This document shows positions 38,640-59,146 of a stretch of DNA of 59,146 bases, in pieces. Origin of the DNA: Candidatus Gemmiger stercoripullorum. Its GTDB lineage: Bacteria > Bacillota > Clostridia > Oscillospirales > Ruminococcaceae. A model generated the notes under the pieces. It searched no databases. It saw only the letters and a list, made by a program, of their open reading frames with translations, and had not been told where the DNA came from. The position numbers and the translations under genes are program-made. The stretch spans positions 1 through 59,146 of the forward strand of contig DWXD01000024.1 of NCBI GenBank assembly GCA_019119365.1. The letters are read 5' to 3'. The stretch's first letter is position 1; every line of letters starts with the position of its first letter.

Positions 38640-39372
38640 CCCTGCGCAAACGCAACCCCTGTAGGGGCCGATTCCATATCGGCCCGGTTTGCGGCGGCGC
38701 GAACGCCCCGCGGGCGGATATGGAATCCGCCCCTACGAATGGTGGCAAGGCCTGCGGCCAACCGGAAAAATGCGAACCTCGCGATGCCACAAACCTCTGT
38801 AGGGGACGATGCTCGCATCGTCCCGGGGACCCTGCGCCGCCGCAAGGCCCGCGGGCGGGATCTCCGGCCTAAGAGCCGCCGCTGCGCGGCGGTTGGCCTC
38901 CGAAACGCGCCTGCGGGCGGGATAAATCCCGCCCCTACGAATAAATTTTGCGCTTTGGGCCAACCGGGACGGCCGCGGCCACGCGTCAGAACAAACCCCC
39001 TGTAGGGGCCGATTCCATATCGGCCCGGTTTGCGGCGGCGCGAACGCCCCGCGGGCGGATATGGAATCCGCCCCTACGAATGGTGGCAAGGCCCGCAGCC
39101 AACCGGGAAAATGCGAACCTCGCGATGCCACAAACCTCTGTAGGGGACGATGCTCGCATCGTCCCGAGGGACCCTGCGCCGCCGCAAGGTTTGCGGGAGG
39201 GCCATGGCCCTCCCCTACGACCGCGGCAAACGCCCGACCATCCGGCACCCTGCAATCTCCGCGGCACCCCGCATATACCCCCGCAACCCCTCAATATTTT
39301 CCGAGCCGCCCGCAGGGCGGCGGTCCACAACATCTAAACTCTTAACTCTGAACTCTTAACTCTGAATTCTAA
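38640..39372. repeat. Hairpin repeat cluster R4
   Basis: No gene lies in 38587-39420. Units at 38661-38736, 38799-38938 (carries nested insert J1), 39002-39077 and 39140-39218. About 170 bp from 38655 recur from 38996 (341-bp offset), but only the first copy has J1. The right end is GAGCCGCCCGCAGGGCGGC plus a heptamer array of the AGAGTTT type (39333-39372). Confidence 0.88.
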
Positions 39373-39420
39373 AAACTCCAACCTCTCAACTCCAAACAAC
39401 TCCACAAAGGGGGCCTCCTC

Positions 39421-40449
39421 ATGCGTGTCCATCTCTATACCGGTTCGCTGGCGCTGGTGCGGCGCAGCGGGGTGGGGCAGGCGGTCGAACACCAGCGCGC
39501 CATGCTGCAGAGCGCGGGCGTCGAGGTCGTGACCGACTGGTCCAAACCCGCCGACGCCGTGCACATCAATACCGTGCTGCCGGACGCGCCGCTTGCCGCG
39601 CTGCGCGCCCGCCTGCGCGGCGAGCGGGTCGTGTTCTACGGCCATTCGACCGAGCAGGACTTCCGCCATTCCTTTGTCGGGTCCGACCGGCTCGCGCCGC
39701 TGTTTAAGCGCTGGATCTGTTTCTGCTACAACTGCGGCGACGTCGTGCTCACGCCCACGCCCTACGCGCGCGGTATTTTGCAGGGCTACGGCCTCAAGCG
39801 GCCGGTCGTGGCGCTGTCCAACGGCGTCGACACCCGCTTTTTTGCGCCAAGCGCCGCCCGCGGCGCGGCGTTCCGGCAAAAATACGGCCTGCCGCCGCAG
39901 CGCAAGGCGGTGGTCAGCGCCGGGCATTTCATGCAGCGCAAAGGCATCTTTGACTTCATCGCCCTGGCCCGCGCGCTGCCGCAGGCGGAATTTTTCTGGT
40001 TCGGCTACACCGAACCTGCCCTTGTGCCCGCGCCGGTGCGCCGGGCCATGGCCGCCGCCCCGGCCAACCTGCATTTCCCCGGCTTTGTCAGCCAGGCCGA
40101 CCTGCGCGACGCCTACTGCGGGGCGGACCTGTTCTGCTTTTGCAGCGAGGAGGAGACCGAGGGCATCGTTGTGCTGGAAGCGCTGGCCTGCGGCGTGCCG
40201 GTGCTTGTGCGGGATATCCCGGTCTACGCGGGCTGGCTGCGCGACGGCGAAAACGTCTATAAGGCCGCCGCCCCGGCCGACTGGCCCCGCCTGGCCGGAG
40301 CCATCCTGAGCGGCGCGCTGCCCGATGTGACCGCCGCCGGCCGCCGCGTGGCCGAAGCCCGCGCCCTGCCGCGGCTCGGGCAGCAGCTGTGCGAAGTGTA
40401 CCGCACGCTGGGTCCGGCGCGGCCCGGCCGCCTGCCGCTGGCGGAATAA
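39421..40449 (+). CDS. GT4 glycosyltransferase, second glycolipid-type enzyme
   Basis: 342 residues, GT-B fold. The start RVHLYTGSLALVRRSGVGQA matches the glycolipid alpha-1,2-glucosyltransferase pattern. GVDTRFF, HFMQRKGIFDFI and EEETEGIVVLEALACG mark the donor site and the retaining Glu pair. It probably extends monoglucosyl-diacylglycerol to a diglucosyl lipid, pairing with 36770. AAAGGGGG precedes the ATG, which follows directly after a heptamer array. Confidence 0.83.
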   Translation: MRVHLYTGSLALVRRSGVGQAVEHQRAMLQSAGVEVVTDWSKPADAVHINTVLPDAPLAALRARLRGERVVFYGHSTEQDFRHSFVGSDRLAPLFKRWICFCYNCGDVVLTPTPYARGILQGYGLKRPVVALSNGVDTRFFAPSAARGAAFRQKYGLPPQRKAVVSAGHFMQRKGIFDFIALARALPQAEFFWFGYTEPALVPAPVRRAMAAAPANLHFPGFVSQADLRDAYCGADLFCFCSEEETEGIVVLEALACGVPVLVRDIPVYAGWLRDGENVYKAAAPADWPRLAGAILSGALPDVTAAGRRVAEARALPRLGQQLCEVYRTLGPARPGRLPLAE

Positions 40450-40474
40450 GGGCGGACAAGCCGGGGAAAGGGGC

Positions 40475-40503
40475 TTGCGGCCGGGCAGGGGAGCGCGTAT
40501 AAT
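40475..40503 (+). promoter_or_regulatory. Promoter of the MFS gene
   Basis: TTGCGG (40475-40480) and TATAAT (40498-40503), 17 bp apart, 33 nt before ATG 40536. Confidence 0.82.
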
Positions 40504-40535
40504 AAAACGGCATCACACGCGAAAGGATACGTTTT

Positions 40536-41696
40536 ATGGCAACCCTCCTGCTGGCGGTCATCTACATCGCCTTCATCGGCCTCGGCATCCCGGATTCGCT
40601 GTTCGGCGCGGCCTGGCCGGCCATTTATACCGAGCTCTCGCTGCCGCTCTCGGCGGCCAACTTTGTCACGGTGCTCACCTCCGCCGGGACCATCCTGTCC
40701 AGCCTGCTCTCGGCGCGCCTGATCCGCCGCCTTGGCACCGGCGGGGTCACGGCGCTCAGCACGGTGCTCACGGCAGTGGCGCTGTTTGCGTTCTCGTTTT
40801 CGCAGAACCTTGTCTGGCTGTGCGCCTGCGGCATCCCGCTCGGCCTGGGCGCGGGCTGTATCGACACGGCGCTCAACAACTATGTGGCGCTGCACTACCG
40901 CGCCACGCACATGAATTTCCTGCACTGCTTTTACGGTGTCGGCGTCTCGCTCAGCCCGTTTCTGATGTCGCTGGCGCTCTCGGCCGGGTCGTGGCGCAGC
41001 GGCTACCGCGGGGTGGGCTGGTTCCAGGCCGCCATCGCGGTGCTGACCGTCGTCACGCTGCCGGTCTGGTCGCGCGCGGGGCACACTTCGCCTGGCGAGG
41101 CCGTCAGCGACGGCGGGCAGACGGTCGGCTTCGGCGCGCTGCTGCGCGACGCGCGCGTGCGGGTGTCCTGCCTGGCGTTTTTCGGCTCCTGCAGCATGGA
41201 GTACGCCTGCGGCAGCTGGGGCAGCACCTACCTGGTGCAGCACCGCGGCCTGGGCGCCGATATGGCCGCCCGCACGATCACGCTGTATTACCTGGGCATC
41301 ACGGCGGGGCGGTTCGCGGCCGGGCTGCTGTCCGCCCGCTGGCCGGGCCGCCGCCTTGTGCGCGTGGGGCAGGGCATTGTGCTGGCGGCCATCGTGCTGC
41401 TGCTTGCGCCGCTGCCCACGGCGTGCGCCGGGCTGGGGCTGTTTCTGGTCGGTTTCGGCAACGGGCCGGTGTTCCCCAACCTGCTGCACCTGACCCCGCA
41501 GCTGTTCGGCAGCGAGCGCTCCCAGTCGGTCATGGGCCTGCAGATGGCGGCCTCCTACGCGGGCATCCTGCTTTCGCCCGCCCTGTTCGGCATTTTGGCG
41601 CAGAACTTCGGCACCGGCCTGTTCGGCCCGTACCTGCTTGTCTTCTACGCCCTGATGGTCGCCGGCACCGCCTGCACGCTGCGGCGGCGCAGATAG
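40536..41696 (+). CDS. Major facilitator superfamily transporter
   Basis: 386 residues with twelve predicted membrane helices in two halves. The loop after helix 2 holds SARLIRRLGTGG and the central loop is polar (SRAGHTSPGEAVSDGGQ). GLGAGCIDTALNNYVALHY resembles FucP/sugar-type MFS members. The substrate is unknown. GAAAGGA precedes the ATG. It is probably a single-gene unit with its own promoter and terminator. Confidence 0.88.
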   Translation: MATLLLAVIYIAFIGLGIPDSLFGAAWPAIYTELSLPLSAANFVTVLTSAGTILSSLLSARLIRRLGTGGVTALSTVLTAVALFAFSFSQNLVWLCACGIPLGLGAGCIDTALNNYVALHYRATHMNFLHCFYGVGVSLSPFLMSLALSAGSWRSGYRGVGWFQAAIAVLTVVTLPVWSRAGHTSPGEAVSDGGQTVGFGALLRDARVRVSCLAFFGSCSMEYACGSWGSTYLVQHRGLGADMAARTITLYYLGITAGRFAAGLLSARWPGRRLVRVGQGIVLAAIVLLLAPLPTACAGLGLFLVGFGNGPVFPNLLHLTPQLFGSERSQSVMGLQMAASYAGILLSPALFGILAQNFGTGLFGPYLLVFYALMVAGTACTLRRRR

Positions 41697-41720
41697 CGGA
41701 TAAAAAACAAAAAACAAAGC

Positions 41721-41760
41721 GATCCCGCCCGGGGCGTTCTACCGGGCGGGATCGCTTTCT
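41721..41760. terminator. Bidirectional terminator, MFS / Rrf2
   Basis: AGCGATCCCGCCCGG pairs with CCGGGCGGGATCGCT around a 9-nt loop, with a T-rich right flank, between two convergent genes. Confidence 0.88.
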
Positions 41761-41782
41761 ATTTGTGGTGACAGGCGGGCGC

Positions 41783-42214
41783 TCAGCCGCAGCCGCCGGT
41801 TTCCGGCAGGTGGAGCTGTTTTTCCAGCATCGCCAGCGTTGTGACGGCCAGGCGGGCGCGGCAGGCAGCGTCAAGGTCGGCCAGCAGCGCGTCCATCACC
41901 CCGGCCATGCCAGAGGCGATCATACAGGGCAGGTTGTCGCGGCCGCTGTGCCAGCGCGTGTCCACAAAGCGCACTTCCAGCGCGCCGGCCACGTCGGCCA
42001 GCGTCAGCGTATCCGGGTCGGCAACCAGGCGGTAGCCGCCCTCGCTGCCCTCGCGCGTCTGCACCCAGCCGGCCTTTTTCAGCTTGGCCAGCACGCGGCG
42101 CACCCGCACGGGGTTGGTGCAGATGTTCTGCGCCATCGCCTCGCTGGACTGCACGCCGCCCCGGCGGTGCAGCAGCACCAGCGCATGCAGCGCCAGGCTG
42201 AAATCGCTGTTCAT
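41783..42214 (-). CDS. Rrf2-family regulator, last gene of the thioredoxin operon
   Basis: 143 residues. The winged helix NSDFSLALHALVLLHRR... with SEAMAQNICTNPVRVRRVLAKL is the Rrf2 DNA-binding part. Three Cys are present (in NLPC, AAC and the final GGCG), enough for thiol or Fe-S sensing but not the clean IscR triad. The ATG overlaps the trxB stop (ATGA). It probably senses redox state and controls the operon through the dyad at 43690-43709. Confidence 0.87.
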   Translation of the reverse strand: MNSDFSLALHALVLLHRRGGVQSSEAMAQNICTNPVRVRRVLAKLKKAGWVQTREGSEGGYRLVADPDTLTLADVAGALEVRFVDTRWHSGRDNLPCMIASGMAGVMDALLADLDAACRARLAVTTLAMLEKQLHLPETGGCG

Positions 42215-43152
42215 GCCGGTCCCCCTCCCTGTTCGGTCAGGTATTCCTGTGCAAAGTGGACCGCCGCCGCGCCGTCGGCCGTTGCGGTCACGACCTGGCG
42301 CACGGCCTTGGCGCGCGCATCGCCCACGGCGAACACGCCGGGCACGCTCGTGCGGGTTGTTTCGTCGGCCAGCAGGTACCCGGCTGCGTCCAGCTCCACC
42401 TGGCCGCGGAACAGCGCGGTGTCCGGCACGCGGCCGATGGCCGCGAACACGCCGTCGCAGGCAATGTCGCGGGCTGCGCCGCTCGCGGTATCGGCCACGC
42501 GCAGGCCGGTCAGGCGGCCGTCTGCGCCGCGCAGCAGCGCCGCGGGCTTGGCGTTCCACACGATCTCTACCCCGGCCGCGTCCAGCGCCTGGCGGTAGAC
42601 GGGGGCGGCGCGCAGCGTGCCGCGGCGGTGCACCAGGTAAACTTTGGCCGCCAGCTTGGCCAGGTGCAGCGCATCGCCGACCGCCGTGTTGCCGCCGCCG
42701 ACGACCGCGACGGTCTTGCCGCGGTACAGCATGCCGTCGCAGGCGGCGCAGTAGCTCACGCCGCGCCCGCGCAGCGTGTCCTCGCCCGCAAGGCCCAGCG
42801 TACGCGGCCCGGCCCCGGTCGCAAGCACAACGGTGCGGGCCTCCAGCGGGCCGGAGTCGGTCTCGATGCGTTTGACCGGCCCGGCCAGCTGCACGCCGGT
42901 GACCTGCGCAAGGCGGAACTCCGCCCCCGCGCGCTCGGCCCCCTGCTGCATGAGCTGGCCCAGCTCAAAGCCGCCGACGCCTTCGGGGAAGCCGGGGTAG
43001 TTTTCGATCAGCGGCGCGTCGGCCATCTGGCCCCCGGCCGAAAGCTGCTCCAGCACAACGGCGCGCAGGCCCGCGCGGGCCGCATACAGCGCCGCCGTGC
43101 AGCCGCCCGGCCCGGCGCCCAGCACGGCCACATCATAAAGCTCTGCCATCAT
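42211..43152 (-). CDS. trxB: Thioredoxin reductase
   Basis: 313 residues. FAD motif GAGPGGCTAALYAARAG (12-28), redox CAAC with Cys135 and Cys138 followed by DG, NADPH motif GGGNTAVGDAL and C-terminal FAVGDARAK. It reduces the thioredoxin encoded 18 bp upstream using NADPH. A double ATG at 43152/43149 leaves a two-residue start uncertainty; GGAAAGGAG is upstream. Confidence 0.94.
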   Translation of the reverse strand: MMAELYDVAVLGAGPGGCTAALYAARAGLRAVVLEQLSAGGQMADAPLIENYPGFPEGVGGFELGQLMQQGAERAGAEFRLAQVTGVQLAGPVKRIETDSGPLEARTVVLATGAGPRTLGLAGEDTLRGRGVSYCAACDGMLYRGKTVAVVGGGNTAVGDALHLAKLAAKVYLVHRRGTLRAAPVYRQALDAAGVEIVWNAKPAALLRGADGRLTGLRVADTASGAARDIACDGVFAAIGRVPDTALFRGQVELDAAGYLLADETTRTSVPGVFAVGDARAKAVRQVVTATADGAAAVHFAQEYLTEQGGGPA

Positions 43153-43170
43153 GGGTCTCCTTTCCGGGGC

Positions 43171-43494
43171 TTACAGCCCCTGCTCGCTGAGATAGGCGCG
43201 GATGCCGCCTTTGCCGGAAGGCCCGACGACGGGCGGGCAGGCCTGCCCGTTTTTGAACAAAATCAGCGTCGGGATGCTGGAAATGCCGTAGCGGGCCGCC
43301 AGCTCGGGCGCGTCGTCAATGTTGAGCTTGCCGACGGCAAGCCGCCCGTCTTCTTCGGCCGCGACCTGCGCGACCGCAGGGCCGAGCCGCAGGCAGTAAC
43401 CGCACCACGGGGCCCAGAAGTCCACAAGAACGGGCACGGGGGACGCAAGGACCTTCTGCTCAAAATTTTCTTTGGTGATATCAAAAACAGCCAT
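43171..43494 (-). CDS. trxA: Thioredoxin with CGYC active site
   Basis: 107 residues, full-length thioredoxin fold. The active site reads FWAPWCGYC (Cys31, Cys34), with Tyr where thioredoxins normally have Pro, which is expected to shift the redox potential. The cis-Pro loop SIPTLILFKNG is intact. It is first in the trxA-trxB-rrf2 operon, behind a near-consensus promoter and a leader of about 200 nt. AAAGGAGG precedes the ATG. Confidence 0.93.
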   Translation of the reverse strand: MAVFDITKENFEQKVLASPVPVLVDFWAPWCGYCLRLGPAVAQVAAEEDGRLAVGKLNIDDAPELAARYGISSIPTLILFKNGQACPPVVGPSGKGGIRAYLSEQGL

Positions 43495-43689
43495 AACGGA
43501 CCTCCTTTGGTTTGGGGTGTATCGGACAAATCAAAAGCGCGGGGATTTAGCGCGGGGAATTTTTCGGATGCGCCCCATAGATGCGCCCCAGAGAAATCAT
43601 TGGCGGATCAGGGGCAGATCAAACGAATGATAAACGATAAACTGAAATGCAGGAAAGGCGGATAAATGGTTTGAACTGTAAATGATTTT

Positions 43690-43709
43690 GTTTCAGTTCA
43701 TACTGTAAC
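43690..43709. promoter_or_regulatory. Candidate Rrf2 operator
   Basis: GTTTCAGTTCATACTGTAAC is a 20-bp dyad of form GTTnCAGTnnnnACTGnAAC, overlapping the predicted transcription start. A direct repeat of ACTGTAA lies about 27 bp downstream in the transcript. Confidence 0.6.
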
Positions 43710-43736
43710 TATATCAGATACAATTAAAATTGTCAA
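43708..43736 (-). promoter_or_regulatory. Promoter of trxA-trxB-rrf2
   Basis: TTGACA (43731-43736) and TATAGT (43708-43713) on the minus strand, 17 bp apart. The leader (43495-43701) shows no riboswitch I recognise. The rest of the gap up to spoIIE holds two TATACT hexamers (43794-43799, 43948-43953) without matching -35 sites. Confidence 0.88.
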
Positions 43737-44022
43737 GCGCTCTCCAAAAATTCAACAACGCACCCACCGCAGGCGGCGAAATGTTTCAACTTTTATACTT
43801 TCCTTTGTGAGCGCGTCTTTCCGGGCGGGAAAACCGCACAGTGCGGGGAAACGCGGCCCGGCGTCCGTTTTTATGGATGTTCCGGTCTGCTTTTACGGGC
43901 TTTTGCACCTTCGCCGCTCTGCGGCAAAAGGCGCGGCGGCGCTCCGCTATACTGCGGGTACAGCGCCGGGGACAGGCCCCGGGCTGTTCTGGCAGATGCC
44001 GTATTCAGAGGAGGGGATCGAG

Positions 44023-46404
44023 ATGCCGTTGTTCACCCAGACCACACAGGAAAAAACAAGACTGTTCCACCGCGCCCGCGCCGTGCCGCCCGGCGCGCCC
44101 GCGCCCGCCGCGGCGGGGCCTGCCGCCGCGGCAGCCGCACCGGCTGCATCGTCCGCACCTGCCGCATCGCCGGCGCCGCTGGCCGCGCGCGGGGTGCTGC
44201 TGTGGCGGGCGGGGGCCGCGGCGGCCGGGTGCCTGCTGGGCGCGGGGCAGGTGTACGGCGGGGCCGCGCCGTTCGGTTTGGCGCTGGTGCTGGGCTGCAC
44301 GCCGTCGTTGGCGCTGCCCGCGGCGGTGGGCGTGCTGGCCGGGGCGTTTGCATTCCAGCCGCTTGTGCTGGCGCTCAAGCTGGCGGGGGCTGTTGTTGCG
44401 GCGCTGGCCGGGCGCATGGGCGCGGCGCAGCTGCCGGGCCGCCCATACATAGTCGGGGCCGGGGCGGCGGGGGCCGCGCTGCTGGCCGAGCAGGTCGCTG
44501 TCATGGCGGCCGGCCGCACAACGCCGGCTGAGACCGCCCTGGCCGCCGTCACCGGCCTGGGGGCGGCGGGGCTGGGCCTTGCGCTGCACAAACTGCCGCC
44601 GGGACGCCCCGGCGCGCTGTGCCTGTGGCTGGCGATGGCCGCCGCCTGCGCGCAGCGCTTCCCGCTGTTCGGTGGGCTGGGGGCCGGGCTGGCGCTGGCT
44701 GCGTGCGGCGGGCTGGCCACGGCGCTGGCCGGCAGCCTGGAACAGAGCGCCGTGCTGGCCCTGGCGCTGGCGGGGGCCGTCACGGCGGCCACGCCCGCTG
44801 CCAGTTATGCGGCGCTGGCCGTTGCGCTGGGCACGCTGGGCGCGGCCGTCCTGGCCCCGGGCGAGCGCCGCCGCGGCGCGGGCGTGTTCTTTTCCGGCTG
44901 CGCCGTCGGCGCGCTGGCGGCCCCGGGCTGGCCGCAGGCGCTGTGGCTGCTGGCGGCGGCCGGGGGCGGCGGGCTGGCCGCGCTGGCCTGCCCGGGTGCG
45001 TGGCTGCGCGCGGTGTTCCCGCCGCCTGCGCCCCCGGCGGTCAGCCAGAGCCTGAGCGGCGCGGCGCGCCGCCTGTCCGGCGTGGCGGATGCGCTTTCCG
45101 ACATTGCGGACACCGTCAACGAGGTCTGCGCACGCCAGCTGCCGCCCAAAGGGGAGAACTATGATTTTGTGGTGGAGTATGCGGCCCGCCATGTCTGCCA
45201 GACCTGCGAGCGCCGCAGCCTGTGCTGGGTGCGCGGTTACTCGACCGCCGTGGACGGGCTGTACCGCCTGCGCGCCGCGCTGGAGGCCCATGGCCGCGCC
45301 GAGCTGGAGGACCTGCCCGGCCAGCTCAGCGTCTGCACCCACCCCAGCGACCTGTGCGCCGCCGTCACGCACGGCTACCGGCTGTGGTGCAGCCGCCGCC
45401 AGACCCGCGCGCGGGCCGGGGCGCTGCGCAGCGCCCTGACCGAGCAGTACAGCGCGATGGCCGCCGCCCTGGCGCAGATGGCCGCCAAACTGGGGGCGGC
45501 AGGCCTGCCGGACGCGCGCCGCCAGACCCGGGTCGCGCAGCTGTTTGCGGCGCTGGGGCTGGACCCGCTCGAGTGTTCGGTCACGGCCGATGCGGCCGGG
45601 CGGCTGACCGCCAACGTCACGGTGCCGCGCGTCAGCTTCAGTACCGGCGAAGCCGCCGCCCTGACCAAGGAGGTGGGCGAAGCCTGCCGCCGCGACTTTG
45701 CGCTGCCCGACATCGCCCACTGCCGCACCGTGACCATGCTGCGCTTTTCGGAGCGGCCGCTGTTCGCCCCGGTCTTCGGCCTGGCCAGCCGCCCCGCGCC
45801 GGGGCAGAGCGTGAGCGGCGACGCCTGCGACCAGTTCTGCGACCGCGCCGGGCGCGCGCAGATGCTGCTGTGCGACGGCATGGGCACCGGCAAGAGCGCG
45901 GCTGTCGACGGCCGCATGGCCGCCCGGCTGACCGGCCAGCTGCTGCGCGCGGGCTTTGCCGCCGAGAGCGCGGCCCGCCTGGTCAACGTGGCGCTGGGGC
46001 TGAAAAACGCCGAGCAGGAGTCCGGCGCGACCATCGACCTTTTGACCGTCGACCTTTACACCGGCCGGGCCGGGCTGTTCAAGGCCGGGGCGGCGGCCAG
46101 CTTCCTGGTGCGCGGCGGCGTCGCCCAGGTGCTGGAAGCGCCGAGCCTGCCCATCGGCGTGACCGAGGGCGTTGTCGGCCGTTCGACGGCGTTCGGGCTG
46201 GCGGCCGGGGATATGGTCGTGCTTGTCTCGGACGGCGCGCTGTGCGACGGCTGCGACTGGGTGGCCGACCAGCTGCAGCTGTCCGCCCGGCTTGGCCAGA
46301 CCCCCGCCCAGACCGCCAACGCCGTCGCCGACAGCGCCCAGCGCCGCGCCGGAAACAAACAGGACGACATCACGGTGGCCGTGCTGCAGCTGGAAGGAGC
46401 GTGA
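44023..46404 (+). CDS. spoIIE: Stage II sporulation protein E, PP2C-type phosphatase
   Basis: 793 residues, close to the usual 800-830. A short cytoplasmic Ala/Pro-rich start is followed by about ten Ala/Leu/Gly-rich membrane helices (55-335) and a central FtsZ-interaction and linker region (about 345-560) with CQTCERRSLCW. The C-terminal PP2C phosphatase contains SGDACDQF, LLCDGMGTGKSA, VLVSDGA and KQDDITVAVLQL, holding the metal-binding Asp residues. It dephosphorylates SpoIIAA to activate sigma-F in the forespore. ATG 44023 has AGAGGAGGGG upstream; the frame to 43807 has no such support. Confidence 0.93.
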   Translation: MPLFTQTTQEKTRLFHRARAVPPGAPAPAAAGPAAAAAAPAASSAPAASPAPLAARGVLLWRAGAAAAGCLLGAGQVYGGAAPFGLALVLGCTPSLALPAAVGVLAGAFAFQPLVLALKLAGAVVAALAGRMGAAQLPGRPYIVGAGAAGAALLAEQVAVMAAGRTTPAETALAAVTGLGAAGLGLALHKLPPGRPGALCLWLAMAAACAQRFPLFGGLGAGLALAACGGLATALAGSLEQSAVLALALAGAVTAATPAASYAALAVALGTLGAAVLAPGERRRGAGVFFSGCAVGALAAPGWPQALWLLAAAGGGGLAALACPGAWLRAVFPPPAPPAVSQSLSGAARRLSGVADALSDIADTVNEVCARQLPPKGENYDFVVEYAARHVCQTCERRSLCWVRGYSTAVDGLYRLRAALEAHGRAELEDLPGQLSVCTHPSDLCAAVTHGYRLWCSRRQTRARAGALRSALTEQYSAMAAALAQMAAKLGAAGLPDARRQTRVAQLFAALGLDPLECSVTADAAGRLTANVTVPRVSFSTGEAAALTKEVGEACRRDFALPDIAHCRTVTMLRFSERPLFAPVFGLASRPAPGQSVSGDACDQFCDRAGRAQMLLCDGMGTGKSAAVDGRMAARLTGQLLRAGFAAESAARLVNVALGLKNAEQESGATIDLLTVDLYTGRAGLFKAGAAASFLVRGGVAQVLEAPSLPIGVTEGVVGRSTAFGLAAGDMVVLVSDGALCDGCDWVADQLQLSARLGQTPAQTANAVADSAQRRAGNKQDDITVAVLQLEGA

Positions 46405-46417
46405 AGGGGGAGAGAAA

Positions 46418-46985
46418 ATGAGGAATGAGGAATTAGGAATGAGGAATGGAGCGGCGGGGGAGGGCGGCCATAAACGGCCGGGCGTTTGCCGCAATGTCTC
46501 CGGGACGATCTCCGGCCTAAGAGCCGGACCTGCGGTCTTTGGCCTCCGAAACGCGCCTGCGGGCGCAGTGCGAGCATCGTCCCCTACAGAGGTTTGTTAT
46601 AACGCAGGGACGGCGGTTTCCCGGTTGGCCGCGGGCCCGCCGTTGGTCGTAGGGGAGGGATTTATCCCTCCCGCGGGTGTTTGCGGCAGCGCAAGGTCTT
46701 TGGTTGGCCGCGATGTTCCCCGCGTTCTGTAGGGCGGGCGTTCACGCCCGCCGCACCGCAGCGATTCAAAACCGGGATGTTCGCGCCGCCGTGGGGTCCG
46801 GCGGGATGAGGGCATCCCGCCCTACGGCCGCCCGGGTGGTGACGGCCAACCCTTTTGGCCGCAACGTTTGCCATGGTTTGTAGGGGAGGGCCATGGCCCT
46901 CCCGGGGACATTGCGGCGGCGCAAGGTCCCCTACAGGGGCTTGCAATGCCGCAGAGGTGCGGTTCCCCGGTTGGCCGCGGGCCTC
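46418..46985. repeat. Hairpin repeat cluster R5
   Basis: No gene lies in 46405-47409. A heptamer array (46418-46450) starts 14 bp after the spoIIE stop. Next is a GGGACGAT...GCGAGCATCGTCCC hairpin carrying nested insert J2 (46510-46569), then units with GGGATTTATCCC, GGGCGGGCGTTCACGCCCGCC, GGCGGGATGAGGGCATCCCGCC and GGGCCATGGCCC stems. Confidence 0.85.
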
Positions 46986-46997
46986 CGCCGCCATTTG

Positions 46998-47137: not shown

Positions 47138-47260
47138 CCTTTTGTGCGGCCGCGCGTTTTCATACATTTTCCCCAAAACCAAAACCGCGCAGCAACGCCA
47201 AACCGGTGCGGCGGGCTGGTACTGTCCACAATTTTTTTACAAAAACGGCGAAAAAAACTG

Positions 47261-49895: not shown

Positions 49896-49936
49896 AGGCG
49901 TATAACCATCCCCCTCATATGACAAAGGAGAAGCCT

Positions 49937-51354: not shown

Positions 51355-51399
51355 GCGCCCGGAAAAGCGCGCAGAATGACCGGCGTTTCCAATTGTTGC

Positions 51400-51438
51400 A
51401 AAAAGACGGACCTCCCGCAAAGGGAGGTCCGTCTTTTT
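51400..51438 (+). terminator. Terminator of the amidotransferase/Dabb operon
   Basis: AAAAAGACGGACCTCCC pairs perfectly with GGGAGGTCCGTCTTTTT, loop GCAAA. It is symmetrical, so it works in both directions. Confidence 0.93.
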
Positions 51439-51499
51439 GCGTACCGGCAAACGCCCGGCCGGAACGAAAGGCCGCGGCCGGCCGGGGAACCGCAAACCT

Positions 51500-52560
51500 T
51501 CACGGTGCCGCAACCCCTGTAGGGGACGATGCTTGCATCGTCCCGGGAACCCTGCGGTGGCGCGGACGCCTGCGGGCGGGATGAATCCCGCCCCTACGAA
51601 CAATTTTTGTGCTTTAGGCCAACCGGAATGGCCACCGCCACCCGGGCGGCCGTAGGGCGGGATGCCTCATCCCGCCGGACCCTGCGGCGGCGCAAGGTCC
51701 CGATTTTTGAAATCGCCAAGGTGCGGCGGGCGTGAACGCCCGCCCTACGAGACGGGGAAAATGCGGCGGCGAACCGGGAAATTGCGGTGGCGCAGGGTTT
51801 TGCGGGAGGGCTATGCCCCTCCCCCCTACAAACCGCGGCAAACGTCGCGGCCAGACGGGATGACTGTGGCCCCACACGATTGCAACCTTTGTAGGGGACG
51901 ATGCTCGCATCGTCCCGGGAACCCTGCGGTGGCGCGGACGCCTGCGGGCGGGATGAATCCCGCCCCTACGAACAATTTTTGTGTTTTAGGCCAACCGGAA
52001 TGGCCACCGCCACCCGGGCGGCCGTAGGGCGGGATGCCCTCATCCCGCCGTACCCTGCGGTGGTGCAAGGTCCCGATTTTTGAAATCGCCAAGGTGCGGC
52101 GGGCGTGAACGCCCGCCCTACGGGACGGGGAAAACACGGCGACTACCCGGCAAGGCGTGCCGCCGCAAGGTCCGCGGGAGGGCCATGGCCCTCCCCTACA
52201 AACCGGGGGTAACGCCCGGCCACCTGGGAAACCGTAGCCCTGCGTTATAACAAACCTTTGTAGGGGCCGATTCCATATCGGCCCGGTTCGCGGCGGCGCA
52301 GGGCCCTGCGGGCGGGATCTCCGGCCTAAGAGCCGCCGCTGCGCGGCGGTTGGCCTCCGAAACGCGCCTGCGGGCGCAGTAAATCCCGCCCCTACGAACA
52401 ATTTTTATGTTTTGGACCAACCGGGACAGTTGTGGCCACCCGGGCGGCTGTAGGGCGGGATGCCCTCATCCCGCCGGACCCCGCGGCGGCGCAAGGTTCC
52501 CCGGGCGGATATGGAATACGCCCCTACGACCGGCGGCGGGTGCGCGGTCGGCCAGGAAAA
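51500..52560. repeat. Hairpin repeat cluster R6
   Basis: No gene lies in 51355-52864. Units include 51519-51597, one ending about 51747, and a near-copy of this block offset by about 372 bp (from about 51889). Another carries nested insert J3 (52319-52380). Stems seen: GGGACGATGC, GGGCGGGATGAATCCCGCCC, GGCGGGATG(CCCT)CATCCCGCC, GGCGGGCGTGAACGCCCGCC, GGGCCATGGCCC. From 52561 to 52700 nothing is recognised. Confidence 0.85.
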
Positions 52561-52711
52561 TGCCAACCTCACGCTGCCGCACCCCTGCGCCCGCCCTTGG
52601 CATCCTGCACGATTTTGGCGCGGCTGACAAGGGGCGGCGTCGTGGAGGGTGCCGAAACTGCATTGACGGCATCAATAGTCCATATTTACGCCAAATTCGG
52701 CGTTCTATCCA

Positions 52712-52740
52712 TTCCCAAACAGGCGGATTTGTTGTATAAT
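52712..52740 (+). promoter_or_regulatory. Promoter of the P-loop ATPase gene
   Basis: TTCCCA (52712-52717) and TATAAT (52735-52740), 17 bp apart. The leader to the TTG start is about 120 nt. Confidence 0.7.
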
Positions 52741-52864
52741 CTGGACAAAAGCAGTTAAAATTTTAACACTGCTTAGGATGCCTGCCGGGCTGGGGAATGT
52801 GCCGCGGTGGGGAAAGCGCCGGGGCGGCCCGCGCGGCCGCCGATGCAGAGAAGGGGTGTCCTGT

Positions 52865-53491
52865 TTGAAAAAGCTGATTTTGGTAACAAGCCCGCCCGCC
52901 TGCGGCAAAACGTTCATCTCCCGCCAGCTGGCGGGGGCGCTCCAGCATGTCGTGTATCTGGACAAGGACACGCTGATCCCGCTGTCCAAGCAGATCTTTG
53001 CGGTGGCGCACCAGCCGTATGACCGCAGCAGCATCTTTTTTGAAAAGTATATCCGCGACCTTGAATATCAGGTCATCCTGGACCTGGCGATGGAAGCGCT
53101 GCTGTACGACGATATCGTGCTGATCAACGCCCCCTTTACGCAGGAAATCCGCGACGACGCCTACATCGCCACCCTGCGCAAAGAGCTGGCCAAAAAGGAG
53201 GCCGAGCTCGTGGTTATCTGGGTCGATACCGACCCGGAGGTCTGCCACCAGCGCATGATCGACCGCGCCAGCGACCGCGATATCTGGAAGCTGACCCACT
53301 GGGACGAATACATCCTCGGCGTCAACTTTGAGCCGCCGATGAACCTCAAGCTCAAGAACCAGCCCGATTCGCTGCTGATCTTCCACAACTCTTCGGACGA
53401 GGAGTTCGCAAAGAGCATGCAGGAGATCGTGGCGCAGCTGGAGTCCACGGTCAAAAAAGGCCGCCGCCCCCGCACGCCGCGCCGGCTTTGA
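52865..53491 (+). CDS. P-loop ATPase/kinase-like protein
   Basis: 208 residues from a TTG start (LKKLILVTSPPACGKT), chosen because AGAAGGGG lies about 10 bases upstream and no ATG fits. Walker A is SPPACGKT (about 9-16). LVVIWVDTDPEVCHQRMIDR resembles the LID/R-finger region of small-molecule kinases and AAA-type ATP-binding proteins. The C-terminus is strongly basic (KKGRRPRTPRRL). Substrate unknown. Confidence 0.78.
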   Translation: MKKLILVTSPPACGKTFISRQLAGALQHVVYLDKDTLIPLSKQIFAVAHQPYDRSSIFFEKYIRDLEYQVILDLAMEALLYDDIVLINAPFTQEIRDDAYIATLRKELAKKEAELVVIWVDTDPEVCHQRMIDRASDRDIWKLTHWDEYILGVNFEPPMNLKLKNQPDSLLIFHNSSDEEFAKSMQEIVAQLESTVKKGRRPRTPRRL

Positions 53492-53524
53492 TGCGCCCTT
53501 CTTTCCCCATACAGTTTCATAACA

Positions 53525-53554
53525 CAGGCCCGCGGCCATATGGCCGCGGGCCTG
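53525..53554. terminator. Bidirectional terminator (palindrome)
   Basis: AGGCCCGCGGCCA and its complement meet at a central TATA, making a nearly loopless palindrome of about 28 bp between convergent genes. Confidence 0.75.
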
Positions 53555-53600
53555 TTGCGTTGTGTCTGGGGTGCGCCGGGGTGCGGGCGCGGCTTGCTTT

Positions 53601-54122
53601 TTATGGCTGCGGTTGCGCGGCGGCGTGGGCGGCGGCAAGGCGGCGGTATTCCTCCACGTTGGCGGCGAGGGCGGCGGTCTGGTCGGGGCGCACGGGGCCG
53701 CGCACGCGGCCCGGCACGCCGACGACCAGGCTGTACGGCGGGACCACCGTGCCTTCCGGCACCAGCGCCCCGGCGGCGACCAGGCAGCCCTCGCCCAGCA
53801 CGGCGCCGTCCAGCACGGTCGCGTGCATGCCGATGAGGCACCCGTCCCCGACCGTGCAGCCGTGCAGGATGGCCCCGTGCCCGACGCTGACGCCGCGGCC
53901 GAGCGTGATGTCAAGCTGCGGGCCGGTGTGCAGCACGGCGTTGTCCTGCACGTTGGTGTCGGGGGCGACCGTGATGCGGCCGGTGTCGGCGCGCAGCACC
54001 GCGCCGTACCACACGCTGGCGCCCGCGCCAAGGCGCACCGCCCCCGCCAGCACCGCGCCCGCCGCCACGAACGCCGCGGCGGCGGTGTCCGGCGTGTGGC
54101 CGCCGATGGTCAGGCAGGGCAT
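53601..54122 (-). CDS. Gamma-class carbonic anhydrase-like protein
   Basis: 173 residues of left-handed beta-helix hexapeptide repeats, forming a trimer. Zinc ligands fit His65 and the pair GHGAILHG (His82, His87), as in Cam/YrdA/PaaY proteins. The C-terminal helix (AALAANVEEYRRLAAAH) packs on the helix. ATG 54122 follows AAGGAG. It is 57 bp downstream of aroD on the same strand. Activity as carbonic anhydrase versus a non-hydratase role is open. Confidence 0.88.
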   Translation of the reverse strand: MPCLTIGGHTPDTAAAAFVAAGAVLAGAVRLGAGASVWYGAVLRADTGRITVAPDTNVQDNAVLHTGPQLDITLGRGVSVGHGAILHGCTVGDGCLIGMHATVLDGAVLGEGCLVAAGALVPEGTVVPPYSLVVGVPGRVRGPVRPDQTAALAANVEEYRRLAAAHAAAQPQP

Positions 54123-54179
54123 GGGAAAGTCTCCTTCCAAATCAAAATAGCCGGGTCAAAAATCCGGTTCGGCCGCGGC

Positions 54180-54965
54180 TCACCCCAGGCCGCAGGCGCT
54201 CTGGGCCTGCAGGGCGGCGCGCAGGGCGGCGGCGTCGGGCTGGCCGGGGGCGCTGGCGGCCCCGGCGGTGCCGAAGCTGGCGCAGACGCCGAACGCCGCG
54301 CCGCACACGCGGGTCACGGCGCCCAGCGGGCCCATCGCCATTGTGATGAGCGGCGTTTCGGGGCGGCGGGCGGCGGCCAGGGCCGTGGCTTCCAGCAGGC
54401 GGGCGGCGTCCGCCGGGGCGGCGGGCATCACGGCCAGCTTGGCAATGTCCGCCCCGGCGTTGGCCATGGCGGTCAGGGCGTTGGCCATGGCCTTGGTCGC
54501 GGGCGTGCCGTCGAAATGATGTTCGCTGAACACGGCCGCGGCCCCGGCCTTGTGGGCCGCGGCCAGCAGGCGTGCGCAGGGGCCCGGCCCGGCCGAAAAC
54601 TCCACATCCAGCAGATCGAACGCCCCGGCCGCTTTGGCGCACAGCGTTTCCAGCAAAGCGGCGTAGGCTTCGGGGTCAAGCGCGGCCTGCCCGCCCTCGC
54701 GCGCGGTGCGCAGCGTGACCAGCAGCGGCGTCTGCCCGGCGGCGCGGCGCACGGTCTGCACGGCCCAGACCAGCCCCAGGTGGCTCTGGTCGGCCAGCGC
54801 GTCCAGCCGCAGCTCAACGATATCCCCGGCGGCGGCCGCGGCCTGCGCCTGCAGCGCAGCGGGCTGGGGCAGCAGCGCCGTGACCGGCACAATGACGCGG
54901 CAGCGCCCCGCCCCGGCCCGGCAGGGCGCCGCAAGCGTGACGCCGCGCAAAGTCACATCAGGCAT
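54180..54965 (-). CDS. aroD: Type I 3-dehydroquinate dehydratase
   Basis: 261 residues. ELRLD (Glu51, Arg53) at the substrate site, catalytic His in SEHHFDGTP (149/150), and Schiff-base Lys176 in DIAKLAVMP. SFGTAGAASAPGQ is the closing loop with the conserved Ser and Gln. It converts 3-dehydroquinate to 3-dehydroshikimate in aromatic amino-acid synthesis. It is more Ala-rich than usual but of normal length. Confidence 0.93.
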   Translation of the reverse strand: MPDVTLRGVTLAAPCRAGAGRCRVIVPVTALLPQPAALQAQAAAAAGDIVELRLDALADQSHLGLVWAVQTVRRAAGQTPLLVTLRTAREGGQAALDPEAYAALLETLCAKAAGAFDLLDVEFSAGPGPCARLLAAAHKAGAAAVFSEHHFDGTPATKAMANALTAMANAGADIAKLAVMPAAPADAARLLEATALAAARRPETPLITMAMGPLGAVTRVCGAAFGVCASFGTAGAASAPGQPDAAALRAALQAQSACGLG

Positions 54966-55015
54966 GGTTTGACCTCCCAGAAAAAAGTTTGAAACAATGA
55001 TGAAGCGAAATATTA

Positions 55016-55143
55016 AATTAGGAATTAGGAATGAGGAATTAGGAATTGTTTTGCGGGTTGGCCTGCGGCTAACTTTTTTTGAGCGCGCCGCACGACGCGC
55101 GGTCCACCATCATTCCTCATTCCTAATTTCTAATTCCTCATTT
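55016..55143. repeat. Element E2: heptamer arrays flanking a hairpin (AGGAATT type)
   Basis: AATTAGGAATTAGGAATGAG (55016-55048 array) faces its inverse (55111-55143). The 60-bp interior ends with a GAGCGCGCCGCACGACGCGC hairpin and GGTCCACCA, the same layout as E1 although the heptamer sequence is different. Confidence 0.8.
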
Positions 55144-55178
55144 TTCCGTTCCCTGCTTTTGGCTCCGGGCTTCCCGTT

Positions 55179-56618
55179 TCAGTTGCCTCTGCGTCCCAGC
55201 CTGCCCGCAACCATGCCCAGCAGCTTCTGCGCCATGCTGAACACCTCGCGGAAATTCACGGCGCAGACGAGCGCCGTCAGCAGCGTGACCGGCAGCACCC
55301 AGGCTTCCACAAAGAACAGCACCGCGATCTCGGCCAGGATCAGCCCGAGATTGAGCAGCATGCGCCCGATGTGGAAGTCGATGACCAGCAGCCCGCGGGT
55401 GGAGTAGGCGCGCAGCGCAAACACCAGCAGCAGAGACAGGAAGCTGGCCGACGTGACGCCCACCGGCCCGAACCAGAGGATGAACGCAAAGTTGAGGATC
55501 AGGTTGAGCACCGCCCCCGCCAGCATCGTGACCAGCGAACCGGACGAGCGCTTGTAGACGACATAGACGCTGTTGAGGAAGTTGTTCAGGCAGGTGCACA
55601 TCGAGGCCAGCACCAAAAACGGCACAAACTGCCAGGCGTCGTAATAATCGGCGCGGAACAGGTACATGAGCGGGTGGCACAGCCAGATGATGCCCGCCGC
55701 GCAGCAGAACAGCACGCTGGCATACACGCGGAAGATCTTGCTGAAAAACGCCGCGCGGTCCTCCTCCTCGGTCACGGCCGAGAGCTGCCAGGCTTCGTAG
55801 AAAAACTGGCCGACAAACGTGATGATCTGCGGCAGGAAGTACCCTGTGCTGAGCAGACCGACCCAGGCTTCGCTGCTGCGGCCGCCGTAACCGGCGCACA
55901 TGGCCTGGACGTAGAACTGGTCCGAGGCGTTGATGACCCAGAAGCTGATCGAAGCCGGGATCATCGGCACGCAGTAGCGCAGCATCTCGCCCCAGAGGGT
56001 TTTGTCGAATTTGCGCGGGCGGAAATACTGCGCGCAGCCGCCCGCCAGGAACACGAACACGGCCGAGCACATGTCCGAACAGAACAGCGCCAGCAGGTAG
56101 CCGGTCGCGCCCATGTTCAGCACGGTCAAAAACAGTAGGTAGAAGCCGAGCAGCGAGGCTGTGGTCAGCACGCCGTCAATGGCGACCAGGCGGTTGCGCA
56201 TGCGCGCGCGGATGAACTGGGTGCACAGCGTGCGCAGGCAGCTGGCCAGCACGCAGAGATAAAGCAGCGCCAGATAATCGGCCGCATTGGGGATCATGCG
56301 CACAAGCGGCCAGAACAGCAGCATGCCCGCAAAGCCGGTCAAAATCGTGACAAAGCCGTTGAAAAAGACGCTTGCCTTATCCTTTGTCTTATCCAGCCCG
56401 AAGCGGATGACCGCAAAGCTGACGCCGAGGCTGACGACCGGGATTAGCAGGTTGGTGACGCTGTGCATCATCTTGGTCACGCCCAGCACGTCGGGGCTGT
56501 CCAGCGCATAGGTCAGGTACGGCTGGATGAACAGGCTGACCAGCTTGGAGCTGAAGTTGGAGATCGCAAACAGGATGGTGTTGCTGACAAGCGTCGCATA
56601 TTTTTTGTCTTCAGACAT
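55179..56618 (-). CDS. Polysaccharide/lipid-linked oligosaccharide flippase (Wzx/MATE-like)
   Basis: 479 residues with about 14 membrane helices, of the polysaccharide-biosynthesis/MurJ-MATE superfamily. It begins NTILFAISNFSSKLVSLFIQ and has the central MIPASISFWVINASDQFYV typical of Wzx proteins. It moves undecaprenyl-linked sugars across the membrane. ATG 56618 has GGGAGG nearby. It is 47 bp downstream of the YgjP-like gene on the same strand. With the amidotransferase and glycosyltransferases it supports a surface-glycan role for the region. Confidence 0.9.
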   Translation of the reverse strand: MSEDKKYATLVSNTILFAISNFSSKLVSLFIQPYLTYALDSPDVLGVTKMMHSVTNLLIPVVSLGVSFAVIRFGLDKTKDKASVFFNGFVTILTGFAGMLLFWPLVRMIPNAADYLALLYLCVLASCLRTLCTQFIRARMRNRLVAIDGVLTTASLLGFYLLFLTVLNMGATGYLLALFCSDMCSAVFVFLAGGCAQYFRPRKFDKTLWGEMLRYCVPMIPASISFWVINASDQFYVQAMCAGYGGRSSEAWVGLLSTGYFLPQIITFVGQFFYEAWQLSAVTEEEDRAAFFSKIFRVYASVLFCCAAGIIWLCHPLMYLFRADYYDAWQFVPFLVLASMCTCLNNFLNSVYVVYKRSSGSLVTMLAGAVLNLILNFAFILWFGPVGVTSASFLSLLLVFALRAYSTRGLLVIDFHIGRMLLNLGLILAEIAVLFFVEAWVLPVTLLTALVCAVNFREVFSMAQKLLGMVAGRLGRRGN

Positions 56619-56665
56619 CGGGGGCCTCCCTGGGACGGCATCTTGAAGATGGGGCAAGAGCGGGT

Positions 56666-57238
56666 TCACCGCCCGCTGCGCAGCAGCGCGCGGCGGGCGC
56701 GGTAGTCGGGCAGAACGGCGGCCACAGCCGCCCAGAAGGCGGGGCTGTGGTCGGGGTGGGCAAAGTGGCAGAATTCGTGCACGACGACATATTCCTGCGC
56801 GGGCGGCGGCATCGCGCACAGCCGCCGCGCAAAGGCCAGCGTGCCGGTGCGCAGGCTGCAGGACCCCCAGCGGGTGCTCATGTCCCGCACGGCGATGCGG
56901 GGCATGCGCCCGCCCGGGCAGCTGGCCGCAAACAGCGGGTAGTACGCCGCGCACAGCGCCTGCATGCGGGCGAGGGCTTCGGCTTTGGGCGGCAGGACCT
57001 CGGCGGCTTCGGCCGCCCGGCGGGCCTGCGCGCGGCCGACGGCCGAAGCCACCCACGCCGCATGCGCGGCCACAAAGGCGTCCACCGCCGCCAGCGGCAC
57101 CCGCGCCGGGGCGGACACGGCCACGCTGCCGTCCGCCCGCACGCGCAGGTTCAGGTTGCGCACACGCCGCCGCGTCAGCGTGTAATCGACGCCGCCCGCC
57201 GTGCGCGCCTGCGCCGCCGGGCAAACCCTGCCTGCCAT
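56666..57238 (-). CDS. YgjP-like (DUF45) metal-dependent hydrolase
   Basis: 190 residues. The zinc motif VVHEFCHFAHPDHSPAFW holds HExxH (with Cys at the fourth position) plus the downstream His. RWGSC is the second family motif. It belongs to the SprT/WLM-related metallopeptidase group; its substrate is unknown. It starts the unit with the flippase. Confidence 0.87.
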   Translation of the reverse strand: MAGRVCPAAQARTAGGVDYTLTRRRVRNLNLRVRADGSVAVSAPARVPLAAVDAFVAAHAAWVASAVGRAQARRAAEAAEVLPPKAEALARMQALCAAYYPLFAASCPGGRMPRIAVRDMSTRWGSCSLRTGTLAFARRLCAMPPPAQEYVVVHEFCHFAHPDHSPAFWAAVAAVLPDYRARRALLRSGR

Positions 57239-57364
57239 GGCCCCCGCCCCCTTTCCGTTAGTTCATAGTATGGCCGCGGCGCACCCGCCGCCATTACGCC
57301 TATTGTACACGCTTTTGCGCCGCTTGGCAAATAAAGCGCGAAAAAACCGCGGCCGGCCGGGCAC

Positions 57365-57402
57365 AAAAAAAGCGCCCCGCCGGTGCAGGCGGGGCGGCGG
57401 GG
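57365..57402. terminator. GC-rich hairpin upstream of the YgjP-like gene
   Basis: GCGCCCCGCC/GGCGGGGC stem next to an A-run (read on the minus strand, a T-run). It could terminate minus-strand transcription from beyond the window before the YgjP-like gene. Confidence 0.55.
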
Positions 57403-57457
57403 CGAAAATGCGGGGCGGGCAGGAAGGCGCAACCTTATGGTATGATTGTAAACCCCT

Positions 57458-59146
57458 GTAGGGGCCGATTCCATATCGGCCCGGGGACCCTGCGGCGGCG
57501 CGGACACCCGCGGGCGGATATGGAATCCGCCCCTACAAACCTTCCGAAACGACCGGTCAAACCGGACGGCCGCGGCCGCCCGGGTGGCCGTAGGGCGGGA
57601 TGCCCTCATCCCGCCGGACCCTGCGGCGGCGCAAGGTTCCGATTTTGGAATCGCCAAGGTGCGGCGGGCGTGAACGCCCGCCCTACAGGACGGGGAAAAC
57701 ATGGCGGCCAACCGGGAAAACGCGGCGGCGTGAGGTTCCGCGGGAGGGCCATGGCCCTCCCCTACAAACCGAGCGGGGGTGCAGCTACCCGGGAAACCGC
57801 AAACCGCACAACATCGTATCCCCCTTGTAGGGGCCGATTCCATATCGGCCCGGGGACCCTGCGGCGGCGCGGACACCCGCGGGCGGGATCTCCGGCCTAA
57901 GAGCCGCCGCTGCGCGGCGGTTGGCCTCCGAAACGCGCCTGCGGGCGCAGTAAATCCCGCCCCTACAAACCTTCCGAAACGACCGGCCAAACCGGACGGC
58001 CACGGCCACCCGGGCGGCCGTAGGGCGGGATGCCCTCATCCCGCCGGACCCTGCGGCGGCGCAAGGTTGCGATTTTGAAATCGCCAAGGTGCGGCGGGCG
58101 TGAACGCCCGCCCTACGGAGCGGGGGAAAACATGGCGGCCAACCGGCAAAGCGCGGCGGCGTGAGGTTCCGCGGGAGGGCCATACAAACCAGGCGGGGGG
58201 CGCAGCTACCCGGGAAACCGCAAACCGCACAACATCGTATCCCCCTTGTAGGGGCCGATTCCATATCGGCCCGGTCTGCGGCGGCGCGAACGCCTGCGGG
58301 CGGGATAAATCCCGCCCCTACGAATAAATTTTGCGTTTTGGGCCAACCGGGATGGCTGCGGCCCCGCGTTATTGCAACCTCTGTAGGGGACGATGCTCGC
58401 ATCGTCCCGGGAACCTCGCGGCGTCGCGGGGGCCCCCGGGCGGGATCTCCGGCCTAAGAGCCGCCGCTGCGCGGCGGTTGGCCTCCGAAACGCGCCTGCG
58501 GACGCAGTAAATCCCTCCCCTACGAACAGATTTTGCGTTTTGGCCAACCGGGACGGCCGCAACCGCCCGGGCGGCCGTAGGGCGGGATGCCCTCATCCCG
58601 CCGGACCCTGCGGCGGCGCAAGGTCCCGATTTTTGAAATCGCCAAGGTGCGGCGGGCGTGAACGCCCGCCCTACGGAACGGGGGAAAACATGGCGGCCAA
58701 CCGGCAAAGCGTGGCGGCGTAAGGCCCCGCGGGAGGGCCATACAAACCAGGCGGGGGGCGCAGCTACCCGGGAAACCGCAAACCGCACAACACCGCCCCC
58801 CCCTTGTAGGGGCCGATTCCATATCGGCCCGGGGACCCTGCGGCGGCGCGGGGTCCCGCGGGCGGGATCTCCGGCCTAAGAGCCGCCGCTGCGCGGCGGT
58901 TGGCCTCCGAAACGCGCCTGCGGGCGCAGTAAATCCCGCCCCTACGAACAAATTTTATGTTTTGGGCCAACCGGGATGGCCGCGGCCCCGCGTTGTTGCA
59001 ACCTCTGTAGGGGACGATGCTCGCATCGTCCCGGGAACCTCGCGGCGGCGCAAGGTCCCGCGGGCGGGATCTCCGGCCTAAGAGCCGCCGCTGCGCGGCG
59101 GTTGGCCACCGAAACGCGCCTGCGGGCGCAGTAAATCCCTCCCCTA
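57458..59146. repeat. Hairpin repeat cluster R7, running off the window
   Basis: No gene is visible from 57239 to the end. At least eight units occur: 57458-57536, 57590-57686, 57827-57966 (with J4), one about 58020-58115, one with J5 (58447-58508), one about 58577-58673, one with J6 (58869-58930) and one with J7 (59071-59132). Blocks are repeated in higher-order tandem, about 370-440 bp apart. Some hairpins have arms from two different stem types. Confidence 0.88.

Follow-up and report, generated by a model that had tools for sequence, protein, structure and literature searches.

Why does the same short sequence lie in the loops of other hairpins seven times within a single contig? The question was raised by a preliminary description of contig DWXD01000024.1 of Candidatus Gemmiger stercoripullorum (assembly GCA_019119365.1), the whole analysed stretch of which, 59,146 nucleotides, is called the window here. 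It concerns an element of 60–62 bp named J, which had been proposed to be either a small mobile sequence that targets hairpin tips or the product of a loop exchange. The coordinates of all seven copies were correct; each copy starts with CTCCGGCCTAAGAGCC, and GCCTCCGAAACGCGCCTGCG is present in six. According to the analysis described below, J is probably a new family of gene-less, non-autonomous mobile elements of about 60 bp from the order Oscillospirales, which consist of two hairpins, prefer hairpins as insertion sites and, in this genome, ride on REPINs, i.e., inverted doublets of repetitive extragenic palindromic (REP) sequences. To the genomes of gut bacteria, this would add a small mobile element that is gene-less, lacks inverted ends and leaves the target unduplicated.

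Insertion sites and structure of J

The mobility of J is backed by pairs of filled and empty sites, and the empty sites anticipated in the preliminary description exist in both paralogous and orthologous form. Paralogous pairs within single genomes were found at CAGCTC^CCCATTAAAACGGGGAGC (L137), GGGCCGCCGCC^CACGGCGGCCC (L084) and GCCTC^TCTTGG (L155), and all three are exact with an element of the form AT...CAG or AT...TAG. A pair from Gemmiger (GACAGCTTC^CCCCAAGGGGGAAGC) reads as an insertion of AGT...CAG. Orthologous empty sites were identified for three J copies in two intergenic regions by comparing two genomes of one genus (G157, locus L115; G208, locus L275). At the first of these, AAAAGTAGGC^[AT-CTCCG...CTCGGCG]^AAAGT stands against AAAAGTAGGC-AAAAGT, and at the other two the position is equal, with a hairpin of different sequence beside J. 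In both genomes, the two regions adjoin open reading frames of which one presumably starts like MutL and the other is taken to resemble MiaA. In addition, J was found inside J at L095 and L177 and, in a single genome, at L093, L123, L126 and L290/L291. From this self-nesting, the boundaries of J can be placed with a precision of about one base. J thus inserts as AT-CTCCG...CAG, sometimes with GT or AGT at the left, into palindromic repeats and into J itself. Target-site duplications, for which the preliminary description had proposed to look, were found in none of the filled/empty alignments.

L115 also holds two copies (1140–2190 and 4258–5170) of a hairpin-rich repeat of about 900 bp with inverted ends. 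In one copy J is found at a single end, in the other at either end. Parts of this repeat match many times in G157, G207 and G208.

It might be argued that all tip positions result from recombination in which stems were exchanged around J, with no insertion of J at all. This would fit the occurrence of one type of J in several host stems of the genus (GGGCGGGAT here, GGGCCGAT in L133, GGGAGGGAT in L381) and the copy at 38862, the right end of which reads GGGCGGGAT, the same as its own left flank, and not GGGCGCAGT. However, the exact filled/empty pairs in unrelated repeats and the nesting of J in J require insertion, so this explanation is largely refuted and very improbable. The compared sites can be understood without loop exchange, which might nevertheless account for the shared J type and the 38862 end. 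Two further copies with GGGCGGGAT in place of GGGCGCAGT at the right end lie in L028, and a conversion between the two sides of J is possible for this variant.

The preference for hairpins was assessed on 146 copies with enough flank, which were reduced to 57 distinct contexts by flank similarity. Flank stems of at least 5, 6, 7 and 8 pairs were present in 23, 14, 8 and 6 of these, respectively, whereas swapped right flanks gave means of 5.9, 2.1, 0.8 and 0.25, and none of 500 shuffles reached the observed values. Therefore, hairpins are preferred by J. On the other hand, the best flank stem stayed below 5 in 34 contexts, although some of these lie inside a left stem arm (GACAGCTC repeats) or in mismatched REP stems, which are poorly scored by this measure. 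The proposed targeting of hairpin tips is thus borne out insofar as J lies in hairpins above the swapped-flank level, but in other genomes it is also located within the arm of a stem, next to a hairpin or where no simple stem flanks it, and 'hairpin tips only' is too strong. The dinucleotide AT precedes CTCC in 47 of the 57 contexts, and a C precedes that dinucleotide in 36 (background 32%).

The consensus of J, (A/G)T-CTCC-GNNC-YAAG-AGCC(stem)GGTT-GNNC-TCCGAMAC-(P3 stem with TGCGG loop)-AG, describes two hairpins that covary. One, P2, bears a YAAG bulge, and its AGCC/GGTT foot includes a G.T wobble; the other, P3, has TGCGG as its loop. In an alignment of 59 rows chosen by hand for spread, 89.2% of cells pair. 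Changes on both sides were seen for 11 of 18 pairs, compared with 3–7 in slid structures and a mean of 8.6 in shuffled alignments (1/500 reaching 11). The covariation score was 0.277, compared with 0.028–0.071 in slid structures and 0.104 in shuffles, none of 500 of which reached the observed value. The middle positions of stem P2a, which had been left free by the search, are either CG/CG or GC/GC, changing jointly, in 97 of the 108 distinct elements compared. The conservation of the AGCC/GGTT foot and of part of the linker is no independent evidence, as both were fixed by the search pattern. At L159:7159 onward, a J carries about 40 extra bases inside the P3 hairpin. For L182 and L187, a likeness to tRNA was considered and rejected, since both turned out to be an extended P3, and the Rfam tRNA at L187:5989-6072 adjoins that J without overlapping it.

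J itself belongs to neither of two familiar classes of small repeats. The GTAG/GTGG foot of REP sequences is absent from the 59-row consensus, and the few rows that end in GCGTAG do so at the 3' end, which is not a 5' foot. Miniature inverted-repeat transposable elements have terminal inverted repeats and target-site duplications; the ends of J, AT-CTCCG and CAG, are not inverted copies of each other.

The same structure could also be that of a functional RNA, a regulator or ribozyme, for which the host hairpin would be the locus-variable closing stem P1. The covariation together with conserved single-stranded parts, the enriched flank stems and the G.T wobble of the foot, which pairs better in RNA and is conserved partly by way of the search pattern, would all be in line with this. 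Yet a simple closing stem of at least 5 pairs is missing in the 34 contexts mentioned above, the same host hairpins occur without J, and J is patchy, multi-copy and self-nested. At the gathering score of Rfam, the window and six J-bearing loci matched tRNA alone, and two short J stretches gave weak matches far below it. A functional RNA is therefore improbable. The AGCC/GGTT foot also resembles domain V of group II introns, but this idea was dropped, as that family was not among the weak Rfam matches of the two short J stretches.

J and its REPIN hosts

In the genome under study (2.2 Mb, 70 contigs), the first 16 bases of J have 33 exact matches and their reversed control none; with up to one mismatch, the numbers are 41 and 0. 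Two of the 33 (contigs C4 and C11; L011 and L016) probably represent a single locus that was split between two contig ends, because all 131 bases common to both ends around J are identical. In all 33 cases, J occupies the tip of a GTAG-type REP hairpin that forms one arm of its host. The left flank is GGGACGAT in 18 cases, GGGCGGGAT or its variant GGGCGGAAT in 14 and GGCCGGTAT in one, and the right flanks complete the host stem, some with a mismatch. With GTAG at the foot and an arrangement in inverted doublets, the host hairpins belong to the REP/REPIN class. A rule based on GTAGGG and CCCTAC found 30 doublets in the window, of which 25 without J measure 55–98 bp (18 of them 74–79 bp) and five with J 136–141 bp. 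The filled doublet at 52260–52395 and the empty one at 58248–58321 have equal arm types and differ by 62 bp.

Across the 33 matches, the inner stem of J tracks the arm of its host, being CCGC/GCGG in GGGCGGGAT and GGGCC or GGACC in GGGACGAT. Therefore, most copies in this genome derive from REPINs that already held J, and the seven nestings of the window cannot be counted as seven targeting events. J mostly multiplies here as a passenger of REPINs.

The nesting of J in host stem-loops was borne out by folding two of the seven window copies with the host arm as single-stranded DNA, where both J hairpins were placed on the outer stem as had been described. The left flank is GGGCGGGAT in six copies and GGGACGAT in the one at 46510. 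For this latter copy, the inner stem is intact despite its changed sequence, as the preliminary description had it, but the pairing of the foot is broken from AGCC/GGTT to AGCC/CTTT. The empty form GGGCGGGATAAATCCC matches exactly at 58298, but has no exact match at 33 kb, where it had also been placed and where the arms are variants such as GGGAGGGATAAATCCC; a second exact match, at 38915, merely reflects how the J copy at 38862 ends on its right side. The covariance model scored the seven copies at 60.6–84.3 bits (E 8e-13 to 2e-18) and the next match in the window at E 0.11, from which no more follows than that borderline scores are absent, as the copies at 46510 and 52319 were training rows and the others are near copies. 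The features are collected in Table 1. Dense REPIN arrays lie at 27196–27580, 31238–31672, 32923–33411, 38661–39218, 51519–52527 and 57458–58945, and are built of the interchangeable arm types GGGCCGAT, GGGACGAT, GGGCGGGAT, GGGAGGG, GGGCGGAT and GGCGGGCGT.

Table 1. J copies and REP/REPIN features of the window (bits refer to covariance model R1)
Feature	Position	Strand	Remark
J copy 1	38862..38923	+	right-end variant GGGCGGGAT; 77.9 bits
J copy 2, 60 bp	46510..46569	+	in GGGACGAT hairpin; inner stem GGACC..GGTC; 60.6 bits
J copy 3	52319..52380	+	84.3 bits
J copy 4	57890..57951	+	84.3 bits
J copy 5	58447..58508	+	80.4 bits
J copy 6	58869..58930	+	84.3 bits
J copy 7	59071..59132	+	CCACC variant, adjoins the contig end, into which it runs; 80.1 bits
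REPIN doublet with J, 140 bp	38799..38938		doublet rule
REPIN doublet with J, 136 bp	52260..52395		doublet rule, folding
REPIN doublet with J, 140 bp	57827..57966		doublet rule
REPIN doublet with J, 141 bp	58383..58523		doublet rule
REPIN doublet with J, 140 bp	58806..58945		doublet rule
REP arm GGGACGAT[J]..ATCGTCCCCTAC, no partner arm by doublet rule	46502..46587		
REPIN with J, cut by contig end	59007..59146		read with flanks among the matches of this genome
Empty REPIN, 74 bp	58248..58321		doublet rule, folding
Intergenic REPIN array with J	38587..39404		flanking genes almost adjoin in G185, G198, G175
Intergenic REPIN array with J	46396..46986		next shared stretch from 46987 (G185), 47180 (G198), 47248 (G175)

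The gene pairs around 38862 and 46510 were also read in three sister species (G185, G198 and G175) out of sixteen genomes searched, and the six orthologous stretches contain neither GTAGGG nor CCCTAC nor J. At other loci (L381 and L382), G185 has REPIN units that hold J, with arms GGGAGGGAT or GGGAGGAAT, and these match positions 38798–38954 of the window as a block with 84–85% identity. An orthologous empty site for the copy at 52319 was sought in L277–L279, where the interval is rearranged and the comparison unusable.

Distribution and the search for an enzyme

J also occurs apart from REPINs, with a patchy distribution in Oscillospirales. Gemmiger formicilis ATCC 27749 is a named carrier. 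In the genus Gemmiger, a strict pattern found J in 17 of 35 genomes with 1–28 matches each and in none of the other 18, although this pattern undercounts (28 of 33 in the genome under study). With a covariance model, matches at E 1e-4 or better were obtained for 11 of 295 genomes sampled from the order, in five families including that of the window; one of the 11 (G357) has at least 18 copies. In the class, 291 genomes were searched, part of which belong to the same order, and none but the genome under study matched. Both searches used stricter filters, by which weak matches are lost. A looser pattern gave at least 116 stretches in named genomes, and a search with the 16-mer at up to one mismatch matched 9 of 148 genomes, four of them (G029, G071, G088, G121) without the rest of J. 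Among the listed matches of the looser pattern (80 titles) were Oscillospiraceae, Ruminococcaceae or genera of this group, unplaced Clostridia and uncultured bacteria, with two exceptions; matches in Halomonas (L143) and in a Diapherotrites archaeon (L151) were rejected as chance, the rest of J being missing. The loci examined hold 127 distinct J matches, at least two of which are due to chance. J-like sequence also occurs in six unannotated phage-labelled records from human faeces and in a few viral contigs; a phage origin was not adopted, as these carriers may be host DNA.

The REP-associated tyrosine transposase (RAYT), which had been proposed as a candidate enzyme, is represented in the genome by a gene for 181 amino acids (PF01797, E 1e-5). 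A GTAG REP precedes this gene and two more REPs lie within it in frame, so that the gene typical of a REP/REPIN system is present. Its candidacy as the mover of REPINs is good, whereas that as the mover of J is weak.

Regarding RAYT genes themselves, the one at L194:1411-1956 (C16:20170-20712) has an in-frame REP (VGADSISAR) and an inverse REP (RADMESAPT) flanking the HUH core. Most of the relatives examined (L356–L367) have a GTAGGG/CCCTAC pair in or near the gene, with hairpins that vary by gene, and in L361 and L367 the pair is in frame around the same HUH core. REPs within the gene are known for RAYT subclass 2.4 (PMC6006769), and the paired in-frame arrangement around the core may deserve a look.

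J might instead be what is left of an IS200/IS605 or RAYT element reduced to its two ends, and be moved in trans by a Y1 (HUH) transposase. The two hairpins near both ends without target duplication and the RAYT-type REP host point in this direction, and with the RAYT protein of the genome as query, a match was obtained in 14 of 17 Gemmiger genomes with J and in 4 of 18 without (Fisher p 6e-4), a test that ignores relatedness and the fact that draft genomes hide genes. But the link to RAYT may mirror REPIN carriage only. Insertion 3' to a fixed tetra- or pentanucleotide, as in IS200/IS605 elements, was not seen in the 57 contexts, which show the preference for C alone, and no J half lies in 31 Y1/RAYT loci with about 1.5 kb on each side. 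Furthermore, PF01797 matched 13 of 21 genomes of a panel, 20 of which had been chosen for a J-like locus and one (G140) came from the 16-mer search. While G150 and G162 (=G171) among the eight others have a RAYT by protein query, neither PF01797 nor a RAYT protein matched in G149 (14 pattern matches), G154, G159, G163, G165 and G167. For G357, no RAYT match was obtained by protein query, the PF01797 search not having been made there. A RAYT gene thus exists, as had been suggested; a Y1 origin of J is rather unlikely.

Several points weigh against J as a family of mobile elements. Besides the lack of J halves in the Y1/RAYT loci, no enzyme or autonomous element tied to J was found in the genomes and loci searched. 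The 25 left-only and 9 right-only J halves in the examined loci were viewed as short stretches, with no transposase search between them. The orthologous filled/empty differences could instead be losses of J, and an exact insertion of AT...CAG would predict one base more at the filled site than is seen in the REP hosts and in those of G357. The copies were collected with fixed motifs, so that the conservation of AAGAGCC, GGTTG and CTCCGA.AC is partly due to selection, and the number of further pair types in the 59 rows lies within the range of shuffles (26 vs 23.2; 52/500). Folding energy by itself is weak evidence, with z scores of -1.42 for a 62-base J alone (19/200 shuffles as good) and -2.25 for a 60-base copy alone (4/200).

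On the mobile-element reading, J inserts by preference into other hairpin repeats without target duplication, as the filled/empty pairs and the flank test show. Most copies in this genome would then stem from REPIN copying, probably by the RAYT transposase, and J's own movement would probably be the strand transfer of a folded single strand, DNA or RNA, by an enzyme acting in trans. A more far-reaching and fairly doubtful proposal is that J spreads without any dedicated transposase, as folded single-stranded DNA or RNA that enters exposed hairpin loops or arms, including its own; if true, hairpin repeats nest in hairpin repeats and travel on REPINs. The natural filled and empty sites of J allow one to ask how such elements move.

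Relation to known systems

Cyanobacterial small dispersed repeats are likewise very small and thought to be mobile. A literature search at the level of titles and opening lines of abstracts, with most subscription journals outside it, revealed no paper that deals with J or describes nested repeats from Gemmiger or Oscillospiraceae. The main text on RepRanger (PMC12306157) does not mention Gemmiger, Faecalibacterium, Oscillospir- or Clostridi-, nor does the available portion of PMC3733652 mention Subdoligranulum, Faecalibacterium or Firmicutes. PMC7771070 ties palindromes to transfer sites in a set that includes Gemmiger, and J is not described in the text covered.

The hosts of J resemble REPINs and bacterial interspersed mosaic elements with their RAYT (PMC3116915, PMC6006769) in the GTAG foot, the inverted doublets and the RAYT gene with REPs beside and inside it. 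J differs from them in that its consensus has no GTAG and forms no inverted REP doublet, and in that a single REP arm encloses it. IS elements such as IS1397, IS621 and ISPsy8 (PMC1525189) likewise enter REP hairpins at a fixed point, but these are full insertion sequences with a transposase gene, for which J is too small.

By description, J is also like the double-hairpin elements of Allomyces mitochondria (as reported in PMC2800124), which have two hairpins, are mobile and lack flanking duplications, and for which an RNA intermediate has been suggested. They belong to another domain of life, and the likeness would be one of analogy and not of descent.

A further parallel is offered by REP dimers within palindromes (PMC3733652), where small repeats are likewise nested in palindromes and the target palindrome of T. 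roseum is also present in many copies. There, in other species, the REPs are the guests, whereas here the REP is the host and a double hairpin that is not a REP is the guest. With J in a REP, the REPIN in the genome and J in J, this nesting at several levels shows one mobile repeat hitchhiking on another.

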